Assembly (NCBI GenBank): GCA_018806915.1
Contig: JAGKQI010000079.1
Coordinates: 1-64,000 of the forward strand
Origin: Phytophthora colocasiae
Taxonomy: Eukaryota; Oomycota; Peronosporomycetes; Peronosporales; Peronosporaceae
Reading direction: 5' to 3'
DNA length: 64,000 nt
The notes beneath the pieces were generated by a model. That model was not told the DNA's origin and did not search any database. It saw only the letters and a list, made by a program, of their open reading frames with translations. Below are positions 43,605 through 49,702 of the stretch, one piece after another (the stretch's first letter is position 1; every line of letters starts with the position of its first letter). The translations under genes were made by a program, and so were the position numbers.

Positions 43605-44361
43605 ATAAAACTTCACTGCTCATCGAACTGAGCCACAACCATAGCCTTCACTTCATCCGTTGTGTAGATCCCGAGCTCCAGTAAGTCCTTTGTAAACTTC
43701 ACCCTAGCCTGCGCTAGCTCAATGCGCGTGCGCTTCTGTGCCAGCAACGTACGCTCACAAATTGAGTTGTACATCACATCATCTAAGCTTTTCCGCTTCT
43801 TTTGAGGCTTGGCTGCAAGTGTCAATGGCTTGCCGCGCTTAGCGGCTTTACCGCCGGGCTTTTTGCTGTCACTGCTATGAAAAGGACGCGACGTCGATAC
43901 AGTTGAGATAGCCTCCGTGGAACTTACAACAGGTCCACCTCTCCCGGACTCACTAGCCACAATCGTAACAGGAGCAGTGGTGGGTTCGACTGCAGGTGCA
44001 CCGCTCTCGCTGTGGTCAACCCCTCCTCTCTCGTCCGTATTCTCGTCGCCACTTCTTGGGTAATCTTGGTCGCCAAATTGGAAGTCATAGTCACCTTCCA
44101 GATCATCCGACTTGCCAGCATCCGAATCGGCTGCAGCAAAAGACCTCACAGGGGGCTTGAATGTCCCTGTAGGAGCAATTGGTTTCGCTGAAGCGCGGTC
44201 ATGAAAAACGGGCTCAAGGACATCCCAGTGCTTGCAGACTCCGACGAGCTTATCTTTACGGTAAAGAGGTGTTAGTAAAGATAAAATAAATGTTTTTAAC
44301 AGCACAAATTACCGTGAAAGCTTTTTTGCTTCGTCTTCGTCTGTGATTCCTTCCCCTGACT

Positions 44362-44417
44362 GGACGCCTACCATATATAGCATACTCACCCGACATATTT
44401 GCAGCAGATATGTCGGG
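44362..44417 (+). repeat. Left terminal inverted repeat of the inner Harbinger, with internal hairpin
   Basis: 56 bp, exactly complementary to 49075-49130. Positions 44389-44417 form their own inverted repeat: CCCGACATAT, a 9-base loop, ATATGTCGGG. Such a subterminal palindrome could be the binding site of the transposase or its SANT partner. Confidence 0.9.
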
Positions 44418-44613
44418 CTTAAAAAAGATATATGGCGGCTTACTTGTCAAGAGCGCCGCCGCAAATGTCATAGACCTTGGGCTTGTGTCCTGGAATTTTG
44501 CCCCCTAAGTTCATACAATCGTTTCAGTATCTAGAAATGTACCTGACACTTTGGCACGGACACTGAAGGGTCTCACATTCAAACTCGCACACTTCTAAAT
44601 TTGCGAGGTTTTG

Positions 44614-45902
44614 ATGAAGATCGAGCCCGAGGACACGGACGCTCTGCTGGTTCTGGGTGCAGCTTTCCTCCTACAGGATGAAGAGCTGCGTGAGGTGAGG
44701 CGGGAGGTCTTTGAGGTACTGATGGCAGAGGAGTGGAAGATCGCCATGAGGAGCCGACACTACCTGACAACCGATTGCCTTGACCCGCCGAGCCAGTCTG
44801 CCTGGATGGTCTTGTACCGATACGGCAACGACGTAAACTTTTTAAATACTACCAGTTTGACACGGTGAGCGTCTGCTGCTTGTGGTTAACTAACATGCAT
44901 TATCTAATGTCGCTGTGCATTACAGAGCGGCGTTCGAAGCACTACTATATCGCTTCAGAAGGTTCTATTCTATCCCGAACAACATGGTCCGAGGTCGGCC
45001 ACTCAAGCTTCGCTACCACCACCAGATCCTAGGTCTGGTTTTGAGTTTTTACGTGGGCTCCATGGAGCAAAGCACGCTGTGTCTGCTGTTCGGCGTCCCT
45101 CCAAGCACGCTTTCGCGAACGCTACGTCGGGCTGAGTTAGCCCTGTCCTCGGCTTTAACAGGCTACGCACCTGCCCGGATCTCCTGGCCGTCACCTGACC
45201 ACCAAGTCGAGCTGGCGAGGCTGGTAGAAGCAAGAGAGCCTCTTCTAAAGTACACATTTGGGTTTATCGACGGAAAGAACTTTCGGGTACGATCAATTTA
45301 TTAGCAATGCTGGGAAACATGTCAACAGTCTAACAGCGTTGTCTAACGTTCCGTAGGTGCAGCAGCCGTCTAACAGTGACCTCCAGAACGCAATGTATAA
45401 CGGCTGGCTTCATACTGTACTCGTCACCGGGACAATTTGCTTCGCGGCCGACGGCTGCATTATTTGGTGTAAGCACAATTGCCCCGGGTCGTGGAATGAC
45501 TCCGACACCTCATTCGGCTTCCGAAACAAACTGCTAGATCCAACGTGTTGTCCAGACTCTCGTATGAACGTCGTGTCGGACTCAGCGTTTCCATGTGGAG
45601 CATTGATGACAGGACGCATCCTGACGCCCCTTAAGGACGGAGACCTCGAGCGCCTGCGGCCTTCACTACGGAGCTCTGCCAGGACAATCCATAATGCTAT
45701 TACATCGATCCGGCAGGCGGCTGAGTGGGGGATGGGGAGCATTCAGAAGGTGTACAGTCGCCTGAACCTTCCTTTGCCGTATGACCCCGAGATTCGCGGA
45801 GTGAGGATCAACAATATGTTTCGCATGGCAAATTACCGGGTTCGAACTGTTGGAATTTCCCAAATCCGTACTACTTTCATGGAAGGCACAGAAGACTACT
45901 GA
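44614..45902 (+). CDS. Inner Harbinger transposase, three exons, intact
   Basis: The exons are 44614-44864, 44926-45286 and 45357-45902. They sum to 1158 nt, giving 385 residues with no lesion. Motifs are RFYSIPNNMVRGRPLKLR and LSFYVGSMEQSTLCLLFG (helix-turn-helix-like). The DDE_Tnp_4 core follows: TFGFIDGKNFRV with QQPSNSDLQNAMYNGWLH, then GTIICF-like WCKHNCPGSWNDSD, then VVSDSAFPCG. The intron at 45287-45356 falls inside the first catalytic block and is removed cleanly. This domain order is standard for PIF/Harbinger enzymes, which need a SANT-type partner protein. It is distinct from the transposase of the outer element, sharing only the motif framework. Confidence 0.9.
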
Positions 45903-46027
45903 GTGCACAATCTACTGACGTAAAAAGGTTTGTTCATTTTTGAGGTAAAGTGGAGAGAATGTTAAGAGATAACGACGTTACTGCAAATGAAGGACCTCAT
46001 TTTGGCTTCCAGCTCATCGGCTCCGTC

Positions 46028-47265
46028 TCAATCCTTCTTCGTCAACGCGCTGATCAACATAATCATCTCTTGAGTGCGAGCACGAGCTTCCTCTCGGTCA
46101 CGACGAACGCGATCCTCTGCTTCCTGTTTCTCGATGCGGCGACGCTCCTCGGCCTCGGCTTTCTCATCACGACGGCGTTGCTCCTCCTCATCGCGGCGAG
46201 ACTCTGTCTTGCGCTCGTTCTCTTCGCGCAAGAGCAGAATGGCTTCAAAGAAGCTACCGCGGTTGTTGCTAGCCGCGCTCTCAAGTCCTTCCAGTTTGGC
46301 CTTCAGTGCGTTGGTAGCTTTCGTCGCACGGATACGCTTGACTTTGGCGAAGCTGGCTTCTTGAGTCTCTTGATCGTCGTCACCCCGGGCCCTCTTGGAG
46401 CCGACCGAGTCACGGAAGGCAGTGAGATCAGCGCCTCCAAGTCGATTCGAGTGCGAGTTTAGCTCCGGATACTTCTCAGCTTCGATCTCGTCGTGGCTGC
46501 GGACTAAACGACCTTTACCGGAACGGTGTTGGGCTTGAGGAATATTGTTGCCGTTGTTTGATGCGGTACGTGGTGGTAGCAGACCTGTCGATCCAGGACG
46601 GCGTGTTGGTGGCGTTGGTCGTGGGGTGAGGGGGACATCTCCGAGTTCTTCAGTAACTAAAGGGGTCTCCAGCAGACTCTGAAATCCACCACGAACTGGG
46701 GCATGATTGGCTTCTTCGTACGGCATCACGGTAGCAGCATCTTCACTACGGAGGGAGACTGCGGTGGCTTCGCTACGGAGGGAGCTGGTGGATCCGCCAT
46801 CCGAGTGACCCCCGTTCAGTGCTGCATGGAGAATATCTGGGTCGTCGGCCTCGTAAAAACTGCGGTCTGGTTCCGCGTCAAAGCTGAAGTCCGGGTCCAT
46901 GGCGCGTTGGTTCACATCCGCTTCATCATCGAGTTCGATGACATTGGCCTTCTCGTCAATGGACCTCTTCGCTTCTTTAGCTTTGAGGATGTGAGGTGGC
47001 ATATCCGCGACACCGGTGGGCTTGCGAGTGCTGTACAGCACCTTGAACTTACGTCGTAGACTGTCCACGTCTCGTTCAGGCGCTCCACGGGGGCGATTGG
47101 CGTTGAAGGTCATGGTGAGCCGTTCCCATTCGTCCTTGCCCAGCGGGCGAACCTTCTGGATGATATCCAAAAGACGATCGATGTCGACGGCGGAGTAGTT
47201 AGTGGTGCCAGCGTTTCGACCATTGTAGTCGAAGTTGGAGAGCTTGCTGAAGGTGGAGCTGCTTG
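46028..47265 (-). CDS. SANT-type (DUF6818-like) protein of the inner Harbinger
   Basis: The coding-like part begins after an acceptor TTAACAG at 47266. The conserved core is NYSAVDIDRLLDIIQKVRPL, then GKDEWERLTMTFNANRPRG and ERDVDSLRRKFKVLY. This matches the DUF6818 SANT-related domain, widespread in oomycete Harbinger elements as DNA-binding partner. An acidic/serine linker follows, then a long charged helix (EEQRRRDEKAEAEERRRIEK) that should form a coiled coil. The frame is open to the stop at 46028. The first exon and start codon were not found; the frame stays open upstream to 47470 without a convincing ATG. It is divergent from the transposase, tail to tail, with 125 bp between stops. 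Confidence 0.72.
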
Positions 47266-47681
47266 CTGTTAAGCAAATTGAAAAGTGAAAGACAGTGATG
47301 CCAGCCAGCCCGCGTTGCCTTAGCCAATCTAACCAAGGAGAACAGCCCCCAAGATTCACCAGCGACTTTGAAATGATGCAGGAAAACTTCAACGTGGTTT
47401 GGCGCGAAACCTGCGCGCGCAAATACCATTCAGCACCCGGGCTGATACCTTGACGATCTCTAAGCACCACTAAAACTTCGCGCCAAAATCCCGAAGAGCA
47501 CGTGCCTCAACCTCCAGCAGGATCTTTGTAGCTACAATCTTCGTGCTCCTCCTCGATGTCGGGTGATGTGAAGGCCCTACTGTAGATAACTGGCAAAGAC
47601 TTCAATGAATGTGTACTACATGTCTTCATTTAGAACATTAAACCTTGTTCTTCTGTACATTCTGGACTGTGGGTAGCTCTC

Positions 47682-48790
47682 CTACGGGTCTTCCTCCTCT
47701 TGGCGGTCTTGGTGACGACAACCTTCAAGCCCGCAGCGACAGACAAACCATAGATCGTCGCCGTAGTCGACGGTAACCTCTTGACCGCGCTTGATAGGGC
47801 GTGTAGTTGCCACGACCACAGTAGTGCAACGGCCGTTACCGACTTCCATGAACTTGGCTACAGGCCGACAGGAGTGATTAACAAACCGCATCAAACCGCC
47901 CATTGTCTCTGCGTTAATGGCGGCACGAATGGGGTAGTCTGGTTTCTCGGGCCGTTGGTGAAGAACGAGTCGGTAGCCCAGGTTACGGGGACGTTGAGCG
48001 CGCGAGGCGCTGACATGCTCTATCTCACCCAGGTACTGCCCCAACACTTCACCCTTGCCAATGTCTTCCGCCGCAACCACGCCGAACGATCCGGTACGCT
48101 GATTCTTTGCCAGGTAGACACGCGTGGACTCTGCAACCCGTTTCCACACCGGCCTTCGTATGGGCAGCAGCTTGCGGTGCAGTAAACATGCATCAATGAG
48201 TTTCTGCACGAGTCCACGCGACACGGTGAGGAACAATCGCACCATCCAAAGTGAGGCACAGCAGGGAAGACAGTTGCCAACGGATTAAACAGCGTCCGAA
48301 GGTGAGCAACCCTCCACGGCCATCTTGCTGGCACGAAGACGTCGTCGCTTCTGGTTGTGTGCACCAACTCTTGTATTGTACCCGCCGGCGCCCGTGTCTT
48401 TCCATCCGGGCGAATTGGTTGCCTTAGCGGGCGACGAGGTCGGGGTCGCGCGTACGGCTCCGCTATTTGACGAGAGTTCCGACTGCGATGACGAGTTGGC
48501 AGGGTCTTCGACGTTCGGCGGACTGGAGATCGGGGCGGCGTTAGTAGAACTGGTGACGACGTTTTCGGACTGTGAGATGCTTGGGAAGGTCTTGCTGGTG
48601 GTGATGGGGTTTCAGATTGGGGCTTGCAGTTCCAAGGAGGGATCTGTGTCCCATTTTCACTGCAGGTACTGCATGAATCATGGCGTCCAGACGACGGGAT
48701 GTTGGGTGGCGAGTTTTCGTCGCTGGAAGTGTCGTAAATGCGGCGCGACTTCCAGTGGCTTGACGAGTGCACTAGACGCACCATTTGACT
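47682..48790 (-). pseudogene. SET-domain methyltransferase-like gene carried by the inner Harbinger, frameshifted
   Basis: The SET domain reads FGVVAAEDIGKGEVLGQYLG near 48070, then NLGYRLVLHQRPEKPDYPIRA, then MRFVNHSCRPVAKFMEV (the NHSC cofactor motif), then GQEVTVDYGDDLWFVCRCG with a post-SET cysteine set (CRCGLEGCRH). A Cys-rich pre-SET-like segment lies at 48150-48260 (WCDCSSPCRVDSCRN, CCPYEGRCGN) in the neighbouring frame. A Ser-rich, basic N-terminus is in a third frame (TSSPAKATNSPGWK, QKRRRLRASK). So two one-base shifts, near 48140 and near 48285, break this copy. All catalytic motifs are present. Family members methylate lysine on histones; whether this one acts on the element's own chromatin is only a hypothesis. 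Confidence 0.8.
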
Positions 48791-49074
48791 TGCAGCATAG
48801 TCAGTTAGTAGACAGTATTGAGGATTAAAACATGCTGCGCCACGAACCTATCGCCTTTGCGGCGTCTCTGCAAATTTCGAAGTGATCAACTTCTCTGGCT
48901 GTCGGAAGATATATGTCGTTGAAGAGTGACGGATGCATAAAAGGAGTGATGTTCATCATAAATTATACAGATATCAAGTACAACCGTTAAGATGGCTACA
49001 GTGCATAGATCTAGGGGTAGGGAATTCTATCGACACGATATCTATGCCTTTCGACGATGTATGTCGGCATAAGC

Positions 49075-49130
49075 CCCGACATATCTGCTGCAAATATGTC
49101 GGGTGAGTATGCTATATATGGTAGGCGTCC
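49075..49130 (-). repeat. Right terminal inverted repeat of the inner Harbinger
   Basis: Perfect 56-bp complement of 44362-44417, including the subterminal hairpin, followed by the duplicate ACT. Confidence 0.9.
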
Positions 49131-49702
49131 ACTGGCGCTGTAGGTCTGCTGCTTTGTTGTAGGAATCTTGAATGTCGTTCAGCTTTTGTAAGACCCCTAG
49201 AGTACACGGAGTAAGCATGCTAGAGCGTTCTTCCACTGCTGTAAGCAACTTCATAAACATGTACCTTTGTACGTTCTGCCTTTGATACCAGCCTTCTCGA
49301 TGAGCCCAGCAATTTCAGTGGCCAACGCCTTCTTTGTCTTGCCACCGACAGTGTCTCCTCGCCATCTCTGAAGGTTTCCCTCCGTTGTTATCCACCTAAG
49401 GATGATCTCGACACTTGAGAGGCCGCCGTTGACGCCGTCCTTCTCCCAGCTTACTGGACGTCTTCTACCTAACCCCTTGGGAGCCATCTGCGCGCAGGTG
49501 TTGGTGCCACGGCGAATCTTAGGCCAGTGCGAACTGGGTGCGCTTCCTGCAAAGGAAACGAAAGTAAGGTGCTCAGGTCGTTTTGACTCGCTTCGAGCGT
49601 TAAAAAACTTAACTTTTGGACATAAAAGCAAATCGATCTGATTGGCTAATTTTACTTTTACGTGAATATGTTTTCATGATCAGCGCAACTCTGAAGCCCC
49701 TT

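Follow-up and report, generated by a model that had tools for sequence, protein, structure and literature searches.

Two-gene PIF/Harbinger transposons encode a DDE_Tnp_4 transposase and a Myb/SANT partner protein between terminal inverted repeats, and insert with a 3-bp target-site duplication, which for PIF is usually TWA. We analyzed a 4.77-kb element of PIF/Harbinger type at positions 44362–49130 of a 64,000-nucleotide stretch of Phytophthora colocasiae DNA (assembly GCA_018806915.1, contig JAGKQI010000079.1, positions 1 to 64,000 of the forward strand; hereafter, the window). The element had the transposase, the repeats, a 3-bp duplication, and a partner that is probably SANT-like; in the group to which it belongs, however, there was a third gene encoding a SET-domain protein, and the duplication had the form A-N-T in eight of nine elements. 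According to PMC12730594, HarbingerS is a Harbinger-superfamily DNA transposon reported from Phytophthora with a SET-domain lysine methyltransferase, and was named in 2014 by Kojima and Jurka (Repbase Reports 14:2243-2250). The combination is therefore not new, and the question of its novelty, which a preliminary description of the window had left open, is answered by that report as summarized in PMC12730594. Compared by description rather than by sequence, HarbingerS and the window element have the superfamily and the encoded SET-domain lysine methyltransferase in common, and the present family may be one of the described HarbingerS families. In the HarbingerS clade, the transposase is placed next to Harbinger2/Pangu. 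The new content, beyond the basic combination named in 2014, is evidence for co-inheritance and selection of the SET gene and for a SET lineage shared with MULEs.

Other transposons with comparable cargo have been reported. PMC12730594 also mentions SET-bearing MuDR families of Phytophthora; these resemble our case in that SETs beside MULE transposases clustered here with the Harbinger SETs in a clade of 17, and differ in the MULE transposase (PF10551) and in the lack of a DUF6818 match at the two loci L051 and L052. A proto-Helentron of P. infestans is likewise an oomycete transposon with a SET gene, but it is a rolling-circle element, and PMC4067079 describes its SET as resembling Clr4. VANDAL anti-silencing families and fungal TET/JBP transposons also carry modifiers thought to counter silencing (PMC12730594), whereas their protein families and marks are other than those of the present element. 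No published test of the SET role was found in literature searches or in passages of PMC12730594, PMC4067079, and PMC12781887; because the name HarbingerS is easily drowned out by the everyday word "harbingers," some papers that use it may have been missed. Whether a DNA transposon can shield itself by means of a histone-modifying enzyme that it encodes could be addressed with the present group, a tractable system of many copies. A single genome contains near-identical copies with open and with broken SET genes, relatives that lack SET, one or more deletion derivatives, and SETs of the same lineage beside MULEs.

Taken as a whole, the window element is very probably a PIF/Harbinger transposon of the HarbingerS kind, whose ancestral three-gene form moved as a unit and whose SET protein may counter silencing in trans. 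We hold with high confidence the identity of the element and the status of SET as a selected, working gene. The results support the SET gene as a recurrent, selected, and co-inherited third gene of this transposon group. The left (44362..44417, plus strand) and right (49075..49130, minus strand) terminal inverted repeats of 56 bp were 100% complementary, and ACT flanked the element on both sides (44359..44361 and 49131..49133, neither with a strand), in agreement with the perfect repeats and 3-bp duplication of the preliminary description. An inverted-repeat comparison gave 57 nt, one over the 56-bp ends, since the T and A of the ACT duplications that adjoin the ends can pair as well. In the genome searched (92.5 Mb in 105 contigs, here labeled C with a number; C33 is the window copy), a 400-nt junction from which the element and one ACT had been removed matched two sites over its full length with 99% identity (C42:88624-89022 and C34:1050829-1051227), each with a single ACT. 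These unfilled sites fixed the boundaries and showed an insertion of transposition type. The element lies in or beside repeated sequence (window positions 43613-44308 and 49251-49673): a segment of the right flank some 84 nt long was found again at 15 or more other places with 89–90% identity, and the whole insertion site at two or more places with 99%.

Three further full-length copies were found at C54, C35, and C31, and all four were 99.1–99.5% identical pairwise, with about 10 nt of flank included. Protein searches at E ≤0.001 yielded 110 SET rows, several per place, and 36 rows for transposase exon 3, which we merged into 28 places. Fifteen of these 28 had a SET match no more than 5 kb from the transposase, against about 1.2% expected per place, so that chance nesting of the SET gene was rejected; at one of the 15, C58:3312482, the transposase fragment was 34% identical and the SET, a distant one, lay 4.8 kb off, and this pair may be unrelated. 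A consistent lack of SET in other copies, named in the preliminary description as the sign of a one-off capture or chance insertion, was thus not what the genome contained. The order transposase, DUF6818, SET, with the last two genes on the opposite strand, was kept in 13 composites (C33, C54, C35, C31, C44, C94, C33b, C21, C52, C31b, C57, C58, and C55), several of them decayed, most plainly C58, C55, and C31b; C6b was rearranged. The 3-bp duplications matched in each of the nine elements whose two ends were placed within a single stretch (ACT, AGT, AGT, AGT, AGT, AAT, ACT, AAT, and ATA).

The remaining 13 transposase places had no SET match within 5 kb. C28 (435582-438335, 2.75 kb) and C15 (211990-214445, 2.46 kb), read from end to end, contained no SET gene; they had shorter terminal repeats, with transposase and DUF6818 present. 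At C100:91663 and C100:237451, 45 and 47 amino acids of the N-terminal part of SET were retained. Near C36:1311584 there was no SET in 1305000-1314500; SET N-terminal pieces, accompanied by more transposase pieces, stood at 1292050-1292663, some 20 kb off, and the outer ends, if they belong to one interrupted element, gave a mismatched AAT/ATT and were left out of the duplication count. Near C18:392216 there was no SET in 388600-390800, and SET and DUF6818 fragments lay 9–10 kb away. Seven other places (C21:1391864, C100:3146303, C58:1231816, C10:284314, C10:162591, C22, and C34) were judged by coordinates only.

In the gene trees, the groups {C57/C58}, {C21/C52/C31b}, and {C44/C94/C33b} were common to transposase, DUF6818, and SET; the comparison of SET and transposase trees proposed in the preliminary description thus gave agreement in the main groups, which the DUF6818 tree shared. 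The transposase and SET trees set the window group apart, the DUF6818 tree did not resolve it, and the decayed rows C55, C6b, and C36 shifted between trees with weak support. The transposase tree was rooted on the SET-less C28 and C15, and the DUF6818 and SET trees by choice on C57/C20/C58. The other 18 transposase rows formed one group against the C28/C15 root; inside this group, C18 and C36b had no SET in place and C100a had a remnant only. The simplest history is that SET was gained once, with later losses and decay.

Between C31 and C44, the ratio of nonsynonymous to synonymous substitution (dN/dS) was 0.05 (0.04–0.08) for the transposase, 0.10 (0.06–0.15) for DUF6818, and 0.16 (0.11–0.22) for SET; within the SET protein it was 0.04 in the cysteine cluster, 0.12 in SET plus post-SET, and 0.23 in the N-terminal part. 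Closer pairs showed weaker constraint. Between C31 and C55, the values were 0.72, 0.74, and 0.59 for transposase, DUF6818, and SET, a weak constraint in decayed copies that is expected from decay. These data bear on the explanation that SET plays no part in the element, having been captured once from the host or having nested there by chance. The repeat-bounded C28 and C15, with transposase and DUF6818 and without SET, would agree with such a capture, as would the broken SET in three of the four near-identical copies. However, SET kept its position and its orientation even in families as distant as C57, whose transposase exon 3 was 59% identical; the SET-less C28 and C15 form the root, with the other 18 transposase rows as one group against them; and the shared tree groups and the purifying selection between families contradicted a one-off capture. 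We regard this explanation as extremely improbable. Synonymous divergence (pS) between C31 and C44 was 0.54 for SET versus 0.72 for the transposase and 0.68 for DUF6818, which is a hint from the sequences that exchange between families may have occurred at the SET end.

In the window, the SET gene consisted of two minus-strand frames: the N-terminal part with the cysteine cluster (48020..48847) was out of frame with the SET domain (47760..48086; Pfam SET, E 1.4e-16), which lay in the 3' part with SET and post-SET (47682..48284, an open frame of 200 amino acids). C35 shared this break, which separates the cysteine cluster from SET; C54 was broken at a different place, whereas C31, C44, C33b, and C21 had a single continuous frame. 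In C31 this was a frame of 388 codons with Met at codon 22, which gave a protein of 367 amino acids with a proline-rich N-terminal part, the cysteine cluster, SET, and a post-SET motif. The preliminary description had seen the 200-amino-acid frame only and had reported a SET gene with NHSC, a GxG-like region, and post-SET cysteines; the SET domain, NHSC, and the post-SET motif were confirmed, the gene proved to be split by the frame break, and the full gene of C31 added the longer N-terminal part and the cysteine cluster. Among eight Harbinger rows, NHSC was present in six (NESC in C31b and NHHC in C57), YGD, with a Tyr of catalytic type, in all eight, and the post-SET motif in seven. The cofactor GxG region, read by eye from the alignment, was GSFG, GSLG, or GEFG in C31, C44, C33b, C94, C57, and C20. 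The cysteine cluster aligned with that of NSD2 and NSD1, which suggests an AWS-like cluster; Pfam scored SET alone, and an AWS pattern of our own making matched none of 11 rows. In a search that gave 76 sequences of solved relatives at E ≤0.001, the closest to the SET protein were NSD2 (7.4e-10) and NSD1 (1.1e-9), whose alignments were inspected, followed by KMT2C (4.2e-9), EHMT2 (4.7e-9), ASH1L (6.5e-8), and SETD2 (1.6e-6).

Several observations weigh against a selected SET gene with an active-chromatin role. The frame was continuous only in C31 among the four near-identical copies, being broken in C33, C35, and C54, and only four of the 17 SET tree rows (C31, C44, C33b, and C21) were continuous from the N-terminal Met. 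The cofactor motif was imperfect: the groups of the window and of C44 had GSFG or GSLG, and C21/C52/C31b had lost the cofactor glycines (SALAV). Between the closer pair C21 and C52, dN/dS was 0.07 for the transposase, 0.65 for DUF6818, and 0.46 for SET; with the transposase constrained and the other two not, this pointed to a short-term relaxation of selection on the accessory genes. The SET value between C57 and C20 was 0.44 (0.21–1.04), with 0.11 for DUF6818. Synonymous divergence was near saturation in several comparisons, and dN/dS rows spanned frame breaks. The scores of KMT2C (H3K4) and EHMT2 (H3K9) were close to those of the NSD enzymes, so that similarity does not single out a substrate.

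Enzymes of the NSD/ASH1/SETD2 class usually methylate histone lysines. We propose that the ancestral element encoded three proteins: a DDE transposase; a DNA-binding partner with DUF6818, which is probably SANT-like; and a lysine methyltransferase in which a cysteine cluster precedes SET and a post-SET motif follows. The transposase and partner would bind the 56-bp ends, move the element, and leave the 3-bp duplications, and their complex might bring the SET protein to the element ends. The SET protein would bind S-adenosylmethionine and methylate histones, with an H3K36-type substrate suggested by its similarity to NSD enzymes, and would keep the chromatin of the element permissive through an active mark opposing silencing; the best match to NSD-type H3K36 enzymes favored an active-chromatin mark. 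Produced by unbroken copies, it would probably work in trans on all copies, and copies with a broken SET, such as that of the window, would still be mobile. SET is broken in three of four near-identical copies, two of them identically, as would be seen if the protein is supplied in trans, but just as well if the gene has decayed recently or is required only from time to time. An anti-silencing role, in which the protein may mark chromatin at its own copies, is the most likely role on present sequence evidence and is put forward tentatively.

Two other roles were considered. The SET protein could act as a self-restraint factor that places an H3K9-type silencing mark on its own copies and limits copy number and host damage. 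EHMT1/2 and DIM-5 were among the solved relatives, and the proto-Helentron SET of P. infestans is described as Clr4-similar (PMC4067079). On the other hand, the NSD2 and NSD1 matches spanned the cysteine cluster (from residue 182), whereas the EHMT2 match began at 202, and self-silencing would be less easily maintained by selection on the element; we consider this role quite improbable. Alternatively, the protein could methylate the transposase, the partner, or another nonhistone protein, or steer target choice, with silencing unaffected. The A-N-T duplications in eight of nine elements would suit a targeting role, and the transposase alone could explain them; the preference of NSD/ASH1/SETD2 enzymes for histone lysines argues against a nonhistone substrate, and this alternative seems unlikely.

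From the search rows we selected 27 SETs of the genome for a tree. The nine Harbinger SETs formed one group with a support of 88/94, which is not decisive, and together with eight others a clade of 17 with a support of 100/99, apart from ten other SETs, in a tree flagged because long branches meet. The surroundings of five of the eight others were read, with C22, C52:1056k, and C104 left out. Two adjoined a MULE transposase domain (PF10551), L051 (C10:1021200-1025200) and L052 (C83:1628300-1632300), and no DUF6818 match was found in these two 4-kb stretches. At a third, L075 (C92:284900-289300), the SET stood beside an open reading frame that resembled MULE frames by eye and had no Pfam match; at C57:700k and C84:1403k no transposase was seen within about 4 kb. 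It is possible, if somewhat doubtful, that one transposon-adapted SET lineage has passed between the Harbinger and MULE superfamilies of the host as an exchangeable anti-silencing module, and has perhaps been swapped among Harbinger families.

The transposase of the window copy comprised three plus-strand exons (44614..44864, 44926..45286, and 45357..45902 with the stop), joined by GT-AG splicing with the frame kept. The spliced protein of 385 amino acids matched DDE_Tnp_4 (PF13359) with E 1.6e-14 and 54.2 bits against a cut-off of 24.8, over profile positions 1–144 of 158, which bore out the intact three-exon transposase first described. The exons were open in C33 and C31, and exon 2 was interrupted in C35 and C54. 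The DUF6818 gene was a minus-strand open frame from stop to stop (46028..47506), with its domain at 46913..47146 (converted from protein coordinates; 114 bits, E 4.5e-33). DUF6818 is presumably a SANT-like domain; the domain search matched no Myb/SANT model to this protein, so that of the SANT/DUF6818-type partner named earlier the DUF6818 part was upheld. Two small indels that compensate each other altered the start region of the window copy, which thereby lost the opening Met of C31, C35, C44, and C21. Because of this loss and the split SET gene, only the transposase gene of this copy was plainly open, and an intact three-gene form of it was ruled out.

Partial forms were also observed. L073 (C20:74400-79200), related to the C57 element with 91.7% identity over 2,090 nt, contained DUF6818 and SET, and no transposase match was found in that stretch. 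L054 (C93:386351-388137), of 1.79 kb with 53-bp ends, had arisen by internal deletion and retained exon 1 of the transposase together with the two edges of the SET gene. A SET C-terminal end of about 50 amino acids was also found at six places in the protein search, two in C71 and one each in C15, C48, C83, and C57.

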